Shown here piece after piece: positions 22,287-35,602 of a DNA stretch of 64,000 nt. The stretch is from Microbacteriaceae bacterium PS02343 (GTDB lineage Bacteria; Actinomycetota; Actinomycetes; Actinomycetales; Microbacteriaceae). The stretch is taken from assembly GCA_029959365.1 (NCBI GenBank), contig JASCOA010000001.1, positions 124,001-188,000 of the forward strand, read 5' to 3'. Every line of letters starts with the position of its first letter. The stretch's first letter is position 1. A program made the position numbers and the translations under genes. The notes below the pieces were generated by a model. It was not told the origin of the DNA. It made no database searches and saw only the letters and a program-made list of their open reading frames with translations.

Positions 22287-22949
22287 GCCCGGTCGCCGTC
22301 CATCACGACGGCTCGACCGTGGATCCGAACGGATGCACTTCCGCGCCCTCGACGGCGAGCGGGCGTTGGCGGTTCGCTCCTCGACCGACGGAACCACCGC
22401 GGTCGGGGGCGCAGCGGTGCGCGCGACGACGGCTCGCTCGTGAGCTCCCGCCCGCATCCGCTCGACGCGTCGACGTCCGCCGGTCGAGGTGTCGTTCGAG
22501 CGTGCTCCGCGCCCTCGCGGCCGCTCCATCCACACCCGGATCGGGCCGCGAAACGCCGTGCCCGGAGCCCGCCGCGATCGAATTGCACAGTGTGGAGAAC
22601 TTGTGAGTAATGGTGCGACAGCGTGTGAGCGATGCGACCGTTCTTGTGAGTCACAAGGATCCGGGAGCGGCGATGTTCAAGATCCGTGTGATTCACCCTC
22701 CCCAATCCACCAACAGCTCACACGCATGTAGTTCCCTTGACCCGAAAGACTTTCCACCGACTTATCCACAGTTCCCACAGCCGTTAACATCATTAATTCA
22801 TTGCTCTGAAGGGGATCGGGCGATAACCCCCACCGCCGACCTGTGGATGAATCGCTCCGCCGGAATCACAAGGATTCGGGGCGTCGGGCGCTGTGGCAGG
22901 ATTGGGACGCCAACCACACGACGCCGCGAACGACAGGGGTGCCACGAGC
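22287..22949. other. oriC: Chromosomal replication origin oriC
   Basis: 663-bp dnaA-dnaN gap. A perfect DnaA box TTATCCACA lies at 22762-22770, with near matches TGTGGAGAA (22591), GTTCCCACA (22771), CTTTCCACC (22750) and TGTGGATGA (22842). A further set TGTGAGTAA (22602), TGTGAGCGA (22624), TGTGAGTCA (22645) and TGTGATTCA (22687) shares one orientation at steps of 22, 21 and 42 bp. The AT-rich stretch 22782-22803 (GTTAACATCATTAATTCATT core) is the likely unwinding element. Bases 22287-22560 carry no boxes that I can see and no gene. Confidence 0.9.
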
Positions 22950-33590: not shown

Positions 33591-34421
33591 ATGAGCCAGC
33601 CGGCCGGCAATTCGAACGACTTCTGCTACCGGCATCCGGACCGGCGCAGCTTCATCCTGTGCCAGCGCTGCGGCCGCACGGTCTGCCCGGAATGCCAGGT
33701 GCAGGCCGCGGTCGGCGTGCAGTGCCCGGAGTGCGTGCGCGAGGCGAGCAAGGCGATGCCGAAGGTGCGCCGTCCGCTGCGGTTCGGCCGCAACTCCGGC
33801 GCGCCCGTGACCTACGCGATCATGGGGATCAATGCCGCGGTCTTCGCGGTCAACTTCTTGACGACGAGCATCTTCAGCGGCGGGCTGATGTACCAGCTCT
33901 TCGTCTACGCGCCATGGCTGACGGCGGCGGAGCCGTGGAGGATGCTGACCTCGGTCTTCCTGCACGCGCAGTTCCTGCACATCCTGTTCAACCTCTACAC
34001 GCTGTGGATCTTCGGGCGCATGCTCGAGCAGTCGCTCGGCAAGGCTCGGTTCCTCGCGCTCTACCTCATCAGCGGGTTCGCCGGCTCGGTGGCCGTGCTG
34101 CTGCTCGCGCCGAACACCGCAGTGCTCGGCGCCTCGGGTGCGGTCTTCGGCCTCTTCGGGGCCTTCGCGGTGATCCAGCGTCGGCTTGGGGGCAACTCCG
34201 TGCAGATCCTCGTCGTGGTCGGGCTGAACCTCGCGCTGGGCTTCATCATCCCCAACATCTCGTGGCAGGCCCATCTCGGCGGTCTGCTGATCGGCGCCGC
34301 GGTCGCCGCGGTGCTGCTCGCGACGAGGGAACGGCGTCAGCGGACGCTGCAGATCGCCGGGATCGCGGGCATCGTCGTCGTGCTCATCGCGATCGCGACC
34401 GTGCGGGTCCTGACGGGCTGA
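33591..34421 (+). CDS. Rhomboid family intramembrane serine protease
   Basis: 276 aa. The N-terminal zinc-ribbon-like cysteine cluster CYRHP..CQRCGR..CPEC..CPEC (residues 12-49) is followed by about seven transmembrane helices with the catalytic Ser182 in GASGAVFG and His228 in the last helices (WQAHLGG). Rhomboids cut membrane proteins within the bilayer. The position after ppiA matches the Rv0110-like/actinobacterial pattern. Start ATG at 33591. Substrate unknown; sortase, CrgA and the wall kinases nearby are candidate clients only by location. Confidence 0.93.
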   Translation: MSQPAGNSNDFCYRHPDRRSFILCQRCGRTVCPECQVQAAVGVQCPECVREASKAMPKVRRPLRFGRNSGAPVTYAIMGINAAVFAVNFLTTSIFSGGLMYQLFVYAPWLTAAEPWRMLTSVFLHAQFLHILFNLYTLWIFGRMLEQSLGKARFLALYLISGFAGSVAVLLLAPNTAVLGASGAVFGLFGAFAVIQRRLGGNSVQILVVVGLNLALGFIIPNISWQAHLGGLLIGAAVAAVLLATRERRQRTLQIAGIAGIVVVLIAIATVRVLTG

Positions 34422-34424
34422 GCG

Positions 34425-34494
34425 AGTTCTCCACGGGTTATCCCCGCGCTGTCCACGGGGTTATCCACAGCGTTGTGCACAGCTGGGGAGAACT
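34425..34494. promoter_or_regulatory. Phased DnaA-box array
   Basis: Five 9-mers in one orientation: TTCTCCACG (34427), TTATCCCCG (34438), CTGTCCACG (34449), TTATCCACA (34461, perfect box), TTGTGCACA (34473). Spacing 11, 11, 12 and 12 bp puts them on one face of the helix. The array is flanked by an 8-bp inverted repeat AGTTCTCC / GGAGAACT (34425-34432 and 34487-34494). It lies in the 106-bp gap between the rhomboid and crgA stop codons, so it is not a promoter for either. DnaA binding is inferred. Confidence 0.6.
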
Positions 34495-34527
34495 ACACGG
34501 ATGTAACTCCGGAGCGGGATGCGCGGA

Positions 34528-34773
34528 TCAGCGCCAGCGCGTCGTCATCAGGAAGCCGATGAAGAGCACGCCGGCGCCGATGAGGATGTTGTACGACTCC
34601 AGCGCGGCGATGGGCAGCGCGCCGTTGCTCACGTAGAACGTGATCAGCCAGAGGAAGCCGACGATCATGAAGCCGAACATGATCGGCTTGAACCAGACAG
34701 GGTTCGGGGCGTCCTCGCGGGTCTCGAGCTCGGAGTCCGCGGGGGACGAGCCATTCTTCTTCTGCCGGGCCAT
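34528..34773 (-). CDS. crgA: Cell division protein CrgA
   Basis: 81 aa. Short charged N-terminus, then two transmembrane helices (about 30-48 and 61-77) with the family motif NPVWFKPIMFGFMIVGFLWL. CrgA is an actinobacterial divisome scaffold that binds FtsZ, FtsQ, FtsI and CwsA. Usually next to the pknAB operon, as here. A -10 hexamer 7 nt before the ATG suggests a leaderless mRNA. Confidence 0.95.
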   Translation of the reverse strand: MARQKKNGSSPADSELETREDAPNPVWFKPIMFGFMIVGFLWLITFYVSNGALPIAALESYNILIGAGVLFIGFLMTTRWR

Positions 34774-34780
34774 GCCCCGC

Positions 34781-34786
34781 AGTCTA
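34781..34786 (-). promoter_or_regulatory. -10 hexamer TAGACT, leaderless crgA
   Basis: Minus-strand TAGACT ends 7 nt before the crgA ATG. Faces the sortase promoter. Confidence 0.6.
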
Positions 34787-34822
34787 GCGCGACGGTACGG
34801 CCGGGTAGAGCGGAGCTGCGCC

Positions 34823-34828
34823 TAGACT
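34823..34828 (+). promoter_or_regulatory. -10 hexamer TAGACT, leaderless sortase
   Basis: Ends 6 nt before the sortase ATG; same hexamer as crgA on the other strand. Confidence 0.6.
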
Positions 34829-34834
34829 CGTCGC

Positions 34835-35602
34835 ATGACCTCCGACGCCCTCCGCCCGCGCCGGCGGCCGCGCCGCGGCGTGAGCGTCATCGGCGTCCTC
34901 GGCGAACTGCTCATCACCGCCGGACTGCTCGTCGTGCTGTTCCTGGGCTGGCAGGTCTGGTGGAACGACATCGTCGTGGGCGGGCAGCAGGCGACGGCCG
35001 CCCAGGAGCTCACCGAGCAGTGGGGTCCCATCGAGAGCGCGCCCACGCCGGACCCGAGCGCTGATCCGCAGGACTACGGCGACCCCGTCGTCTCGGCGGT
35101 CGCCGCCGAGCACAGCGGCTTCGCGACCATCTACGTGCCGCGGTTCGGTGCGGACTGGCAGCGCGTCGTCGGCGAAGGCGTCGACATGAGCGAGGTGCTC
35201 AACGACACGACGCTCGGGGTCGGGCACTACGAAGGAACCCAGATGCCCGGTGAGGTCGGCAACTTCGCCGTCGCGGCGCACCGGCAGACCCACGGCGGGT
35301 CCTTCAACCAGATCAACCAGCTGGCGGTGGGCGACCCGATCTACGTCGCGACCGCAGACGGCTTCTACACGTACCGCTACCGCTCGACCGAGTACGTGCT
35401 CCCCACCGGCGTCGGCGTGCTCGACCCGGTGCCGCAGGTCGAGAACGCGCAGGCGGGTGACCGCATCATCACGCTCACGGCCTGCAATCCGCTGTTCTCC
35501 ACCGCGGAGCGCATCGTCGCCTACGGCGTGATGGAGTCCTGGCAGCCGCGCTCCGCCGGGCCGCCCGCGGAGATCGCGCACTTCTTCTCCGGAGCCGCCT
35601 GA
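34835..35602 (+). CDS. Class E sortase
   Basis: 255 aa. N-terminal transmembrane anchor (residues 17-43), Pro/Asp-rich linker, then the sortase barrel with catalytic His149 (VAAHR), Cys217 (TLTACNP) and Arg226 (AERIVAYG). Class E sortases attach proteins bearing LAxTG to the wall. This gene, the small membrane protein after it and the amidotransferase overlap end to end. In Streptomyces and others, sortase E genes lie at this same spot near the pknAB operon. Confidence 0.94.
   Translation: MTSDALRPRRRPRRGVSVIGVLGELLITAGLLVVLFLGWQVWWNDIVVGGQQATAAQELTEQWGPIESAPTPDPSADPQDYGDPVVSAVAAEHSGFATIYVPRFGADWQRVVGEGVDMSEVLNDTTLGVGHYEGTQMPGEVGNFAVAAHRQTHGGSFNQINQLAVGDPIYVATADGFYTYRYRSTEYVLPTGVGVLDPVPQVENAQAGDRIITLTACNPLFSTAERIVAYGVMESWQPRSAGPPAEIAHFFSGAA

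Follow-up and report, generated by a model that had tools for sequence, protein, structure and literature searches.

How DnaA activity is controlled outside E. coli and Bacillus is still largely an open question. In E. coli, the DARS1 and DARS2 sites lie away from oriC and combine a compact core of three DnaA boxes with helper proteins (PMC4245941). Clusters of DnaA boxes outside oriC are a known kind of site in S. coelicolor and B. subtilis (PMC10950094), and the B. subtilis cluster is oriC-proximal by the title of a paper cited there. Here, we describe a short element, made of DnaA boxes and a palindrome, in the gap between the convergent rhomboid and crgA genes of Microbacteriaceae bacterium PS02343, and compare it with these systems and with a DnaA-bound site of mycobacteria. 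The stretch analysed, which we call the window, comprises 64,000 nucleotides (contig JASCOA010000001.1, positions 124,001 to 188,000).

The mycobacterial site lies between Rv0010c and Rv0011c. It binds mycobacterial DnaA both in vitro and in vivo and is among the five most DnaA-bound regions, and chromatin immunoprecipitation sequencing in M. smegmatis gave the same five (PMC7738170). Recurrent changes are found there in clinical isolates, in which all but one of the convergent sites fall in a small palindrome, and rebuilt variants of the site gave longer cells, as did variants of dnaA, the latter being compared by the authors to hypomorphic alleles (PMC7738170). In their view the site could either hold DnaA back or help it, and they report "no obvious correspondence" in other species.

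We propose that the rhomboid-crgA gap carries an old, cis-encoded control site that may activate DnaA in trans together with a partner factor bound at the palindrome. For this proposal as a whole we see an even chance; that the site controls DnaA in trans, in whichever direction, is probable.

Boxes and palindrome in the window

The gap is bounded by the rhomboid stop codon at 34421 and the crgA stop codon at 34528 and lies 11.7 kb from the oriC box. Pfam recognizes rhomboid, CrgA, and DnaA among the proteins of the window, plus a cyclophilin-type isomerase upstream. An earlier note on this DNA had placed the gap between two converging stop codons and denied that it was a promoter, and both statements hold: a scan of 34422-34527 found neither a promoter-like nor a terminator-like site, and there was no Rfam match at the element (window positions 33900-35000 and six loci). 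The same note had pointed to five DnaA-box-like 9-mers on one strand, and these were confirmed. Their starts are 11, 11, 12, and 12 bp apart, and a chain of five such boxes (at most three mismatches per box, steps of 11-12 bp, either strand) occurs once in the 64-kb window and in none of 200 dinucleotide-preserving shuffles, and we rejected a chance origin of the chain for this reason. At two mismatches or fewer, no chain of three was found in the 64-kb window, and there are four box pairs versus 0.015 per shuffle. The word TTNTNCACA has seven copies in the window versus 0.75 expected, and TACACNNNTGTA has a single copy, with none in 100 shuffles. The 8-bp inverted repeat that was said to frame the boxes is exact (34425-34432 and 34487-34494), but what it really pairs is box 1 with an inverted box, here called box C. 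This box and the palindrome abutting it, here called P, had been overlooked (Table 1).

Table 1. Positions of the boxes, the palindrome, and related features in the window.
Feature	Position	Strand	Sequence	Basis or remark
Convergent gap	34422..34527	none		Map of open reading frames; Pfam Rhomboid and CrgA in the flanking genes
Box 1, weak DnaA-like	34427..34435	+	TTCTCCACG	2 mismatches to TTATCCACA
Box 2, weak DnaA-like	34438..34446	+	TTATCCCCG	2 mismatches to TTATCCACA
Box 3, weak DnaA-like	34449..34457	+	CTGTCCACG	3 mismatches to TTATCCACA
Box A, perfect DnaA box	34461..34469	+	TTATCCACA	0 mismatches; conserved block in the alignment
Box B	34473..34481	+	TTGTGCACA	2 mismatches; 12 bp past A; box-like 9-mer there in relatives (see text)
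Box C, inverted DnaA-like box	34485..34493	-	TTCTCCCCA	TTATCCCCA in many relatives; alignment of cores
Palindrome P	34493..34506	none	CTACACGGATGTAA	Abuts box C; commonest family form TTACACnnGTGTAA
Composite core	34451..34509	+		Scores 52.3 bits against profile R1, whose 47 model sequences include that of the window
Degenerate P-like palindrome in oriC	22718..22731	none	TCACACGCATGTAG	Its TGT precedes the oriC box at 22762-22770 by 35 bp

A conserved unit and its spread

The conserved unit consists of two same-strand boxes 12 bp apart, followed by an inverted box that abuts the palindrome TnACACnnGTGTnA. This geometry, A to B, then inverted C and P, is found in most of the 80 Microbacteriaceae loci fetched with CrgA. 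Box C and P are its best conserved parts: among 47 non-redundant cores, the ACA and TGT of P are kept in all 47, and each G of the GGGG in box C is kept in 43-45, an invariance that is partly selected because the cores were picked partly by their likeness to box C and P. Box B was no selection criterion, and a box-like 9-mer (at most three mismatches) stands 11-13 bp past A in all 66 gaps from related loci, whereas the background, taken from the sequence 300-334 bp upstream, is about 0.43/66 at each offset and about 1.3 when the three offsets are added up.

The outer boxes 1-3 occur all together in one of these 66 gaps, that of the nearest relative, Arenivirga flava. The full five-box array is therefore clade-specific, and we dropped it as a conserved feature. 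Single extra boxes before A are found at 12 bp (6/66), 22-24 bp (15/66), 34-35 bp (14/66), and 44 bp (5/66), all above background. Part of the family therefore does show a degree of helical phasing among its extra boxes, although the loci compared are related to one another. The phased array put forward in the earlier note is borne out only in part: single boxes at about whole helical turns are commoner than background in the family, and the array of five is not shared. The conservation that the note had asked for extends far beyond the genus in the case of the DnaA-type site, but not in that of the outer three boxes taken together. Its broader claim, that non-coding DNA near oriC holds a site of the DnaA type, is supported, and the mycobacterial counterpart binds DnaA (PMC7738170).

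To follow the unit further, we used a sequence-only profile, R1, built from the 47 cores (the window and 46 Microbacteriaceae loci). R1 matches all 80 Microbacteriaceae loci, of which 46 are in the model, 20 share over 90% core identity with members of the model, and 14 are independent; 12 of these 14 match at E<=6e-9, and the other two (L067 and L086) weakly. The 14 independent loci are those left out of the column counts, namely 13 that score below 16 (L060 and L080 owing to the edge limit) and L086. At E<=0.01, matches were obtained in 239/249 genomes of the family (Microbacteriaceae), 196/218 of the order, and 151/197 of the class (Actinomycetes), the order sample including 16 family members and the class sample nine. 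At E<=1e-6, counted by hand from the tables, the numbers are 222, 90, and 62. Each genome has one to six matches, and the loci that we looked at are the best-scoring ones, together with 14 hand-picked ones in the class. Among the matches listed from the open-licence literature, none described an element of such a layout across the class, and both the class-wide spread and the fixed layout appear to be new. It should be mentioned that in seven loci (L038, L039, L041, L052, L054, L107, and L239) DnaA-like boxes stand on both sides of P, and R1 matches both strands around the one palindrome.

Rv0011c is presumably crgA, a name absent from PMC7738170. In genomes of group f22, taken as mycobacteria from their gene order, R1 from the Microbacteriaceae finds five sites at E 9e-7 to 1e-9. 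These sites have TTATCCACA, then an inverted TCATCCCCA, and then a palindrome of the TCACAC..GTGTGA type; ppi and CrgA lie on either side in four of them and ppi only in the fifth. One of the four (L227) has GAATC at the junction of C and P and ATCAC-N6-GTGAT in P. The published site letters are GAATC (PMC7738170) and ATCAC-N(4-7)-GTGAT (PMC11205783), and from the presence of both in L227 we conclude that the window element and the Rv0010c-Rv0011c site are the same element. The two are alike in genomic position (from the ppi side to crgA, near oriC) and in having DnaA boxes beside a palindrome, with the same order of box, inverted box, and palindrome in the f22 genomes. They differ in the palindrome, which is of the TACAC type in the window, in the B box, and in the three additional boxes upstream in the window, and the published description is confined to mycobacteria. 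The site was already known in mycobacteria, where it was published as DnaA-bound (PMC7738170). The earlier note knew of no described locus of this kind between rhomboid and crgA; as regards position this fails, in view of the M. tuberculosis site (PMC7738170).

Position and proposed action of the element

In nearly all the loci inspected, the element lies 3' of rhomboid, usually beside crgA. CrgA adjoins it in each of the best 30 family loci and is present in all 21 class loci newly fetched (one of which belongs to the order), rhomboid and/or CrgA is found in the flanks of 27/29 order loci (14 of the 29 being family members), and in all 14 further hand-picked genomes an R1 match stands within about 0.7 kb 3' of ppi or rhomboid, two matches in group f37 being partial. 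This usual place between rhomboid and crgA could point to local control of the neighbours, with the element serving as a terminator, an insulator, or a regulatory site for these genes or, in mycobacteria, for Rv0010c. The M. tuberculosis palindrome lies 65 bp upstream of Rv0010c (PMC7738170), and Rv0010c is up in a higA2 mutant (PMC11205783).

We nevertheless consider local control improbable. Besides the lack of a terminator in the gap, the element is 0.8-2.4 kb from crgA in 10/80 loci, and the cassette is flipped relative to crgA in 7/80 (five Curtobacterium and two unclassified; the Curtobacterium loci L066 and L085 are not flipped), from which we conclude that the element works as DNA. In group f12, crgA is 409 kb from the element in one genome and 747 kb in another, far round the circle in a third, and on a separate contig in two more, and rhomboid adjoins the element in 4/4 genomes checked. 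The element is independent of crgA. In three genomes of group f3, only 22, 80, and 60 bp separate the cassette from the end of its contig, and base 1 at the contig start is where dnaA begins, so that, if these contigs are circular as we assume, the element stands directly before dnaA. Neither neighbour gene is reported to be altered in dnaA mutants (PMC7738170). On the f12 separation, the position before dnaA, and the flipped cassettes, we rejected local control of crgA as the main role; an RNA or terminator function was likewise rejected on the missing Rfam and terminator matches and the flipped loci.

Among 31 genomes, the distance from the element to dnaA is 91-305 kb in five of group f12; in a further 23 it is about 12-98 kb, the three f3 genomes standing apart. 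A role as an anchor for origin positioning or segregation, with DnaA, the factor at P, or both bound to it, would suit an element that is mostly oriC-proximal and lies beside cell-division genes; P differs from the parS sequence, and this role seems to us just as improbable as local control.

The control site that we prefer would work as follows. DnaA would load on the perfect box A, extend to the weak box B one turn on, and meet DnaA on the inverted box C, while P, whose distance from C is fixed, would hold a putative dimeric DNA-binding partner. Acting in trans on DnaA and not on the adjacent genes, the complex would most likely keep DnaA active or recharge it, much like E. coli DARS with its helpers IHF and Fis. 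The likeness to DARS is a three-box core (A, B, and C), seen at the sequence level in the 47-sequence alignment. The difference is that DARS has the helpers IHF and Fis, whereas the window element has a palindrome, placed where a helper protein could bind. Because strong and weak boxes stand close by, one of them inverted, beside a helper-type site, the DARS core is a likelier analogue than a titration array.

Titration or inactivation of the datA kind would mean that the boxes keep DnaA off oriC and delay re-initiation. With datA and the clusters of S. coelicolor and B. subtilis, the element shares the feature of being a DnaA-box cluster outside oriC, and we know of no fixed layout of boxes and palindrome in those sites. 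Such clusters are an established kind in the latter two species (PMC10950094), and an element that is mostly oriC-proximal would be doubled early after initiation. On the other hand, three conserved boxes would be few for plain titration, and the variants of the site in print look like hypomorphic dnaA alleles and not like over-initiators (PMC7738170); we regard titration as unlikely. That the mycobacterial site variants behave like dnaA hypomorphs suggests that the site helps DnaA, and activation is more likely than titration. Between titrating and resetting DnaA, the two roles offered in the earlier note, the published phenotypes would by analogy lean towards support of DnaA activity. We infer the separate partner on P, the altered DnaA activity in the complex, and the positive direction, and for this last we put the chance at even or slightly below.

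The palindrome at other loci and in oriC

P also occurs outside the element. The form TTACACNNGTGTAA is found in 116/249 family genomes, with 0-3 copies each, and its backward control once each in two genomes. In 25 hand-picked genomes, the stricter class form ATNACACNNGTGTNAT is found at 17 sites spread over 15 of them (control, 0), with nine at the element, two before dnaA, and six elsewhere. Of 20 hand-picked second P-sites, 11 lie in the gap between a galE-like gene and whiB, five before nrdH-nrdI-nrdE, and four elsewhere; Pfam identified WhiB in three loci and a glutaredoxin-like NrdH in two, and TIGR02194 identified NrdH in one, the remaining names being read from translations. A DnaA box (at most one mismatch) lies within 120 bp of P at all five nrd sites, and at four of them at exactly +14, abutting P like box C; by the same measure no box was found at any of the 11 whiB sites. 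The abutting unit with TTATCCNCA has 49 copies in 45/120 family genomes (control, 0), 43 of them with TTATCCCCA as the box and the other six with TTATCCACA. Three of these six were inspected, one of them in the window's own genome, and all are before nrdH. This reuse of P before nrdH and whiB, and more loosely in the Microbacteriaceae oriC, appears to be new.

Several of these loci deserve separate mention. On contig C190 of the window's genome (about 2259-2330 of locus L281), P abuts a perfect DnaA box directly upstream of NrdR-like boxes and an nrdH-like gene. Separate NrdR-like boxes stand beside P in nrd promoters, and P itself was rejected as an NrdR box for this reason. The form TTACACnnGTGTAA stands between galE-like and whiB genes in 11 loci, by eye a plausible promoter. 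In two related genomes (L121 and L129), P and DnaA boxes lie beside a TetR-like gene, as read from its translation. P was also rejected by eye as an MtrA site, P being an inverted repeat and the MtrA motif a direct repeat of the G-T-n-A-C type (PMC6265350).

P could itself be an inverted pair of weak DnaA boxes, on which DnaA alone would form the complex. The mycobacterial palindrome is read in this way, as two sequences resembling DnaA boxes (PMC7738170), and the TCACAC form of the f22 genomes has CACA-like ends. However, the base matching C6 of the DnaA box is T in 32/47 cores, a box in one half of P would overlap box C, and P does without a neighbouring DnaA box at 11/11 whiB sites, which makes this explanation rather doubtful in our view.

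In oriC, a P-like palindrome precedes a plus-strand DnaA box in the dnaA-dnaN gap of 13/13 Microbacteriaceae (12 hand-picked complete genomes and the window), with its TGT 34-35 bp ahead of the box in all of them; twelve were found by a right-half pattern and one (L137) by reading the sequence. In some genomes, another stretch of the oriC gap scores equally P-like.

A wider proposal, which we make tentatively and consider possible though on balance doubtful, is that the element is a shared, ancient DnaA control element of the Actinomycetes and that a dedicated P-binding partner, predicted to act also at nrdH, at whiB, and in the Microbacteriaceae oriC, couples initiation, dNTP supply, and division. 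If true, one factor would join these three processes, nrdH representing nucleotide supply and whiB division or development, as an actinobacterial answer to DARS with IHF and Fis. The presence of P before nrdH and whiB makes this coupling testable, and P gives a direct handle on a possible missing partner of DnaA. The element itself is short and precisely bounded. Its range takes in both the Microbacteriaceae and mycobacteria-like genomes, and DnaA binding has been demonstrated by experiment for the counterpart in mycobacteria.

A number of observations weigh against the proposed partner-assisted control site: (i) the dnaA variants initiated replication at an unaltered rate (PMC7738170); (ii) the authors' reading of the mycobacterial palindrome, given above, would need no separate partner; (iii) the HigA2 antitoxin binds the M. 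tuberculosis palindrome in vitro (PMC11205783), which, with the rise of Rv0010c in the absence of HigA2, suggests some local control in that species; (iv) the left half of the oriC palindrome is loose, with 8-10 of 12 positions agreeing with P, and no P-like palindrome was found by the scan criterion in three oriC gaps outside the Microbacteriaceae (L250, L251, and L252), which limits the oriC link to that family on present evidence; (v) 46/197 class genomes have no R1 match at E<=0.01, and weaker matches may be other DnaA clusters because oriC regions also match partly; and (vi) two Streptomyces-like f37 genomes have DnaA boxes in the equivalent gap with a partial R1 match only. We take the f37 genomes to be Streptomyces, and the Streptomyces cluster H69 may correspond to this gap. 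HigA2 as a general factor for P was thought unlikely given the wide conservation of P; HigA2 was not searched for in other genomes.

A further group of boxes lies elsewhere in the window. At 2274-2476, upstream of a dnaB-like open reading frame and separating it from an rplI-like one (both assigned by reading translations), there are three minus-strand DnaA-box-like sites (2279, 2413, and 2468). In mycobacteria, too, the dnaB upstream region ranks among those most bound by DnaA (PMC7738170).
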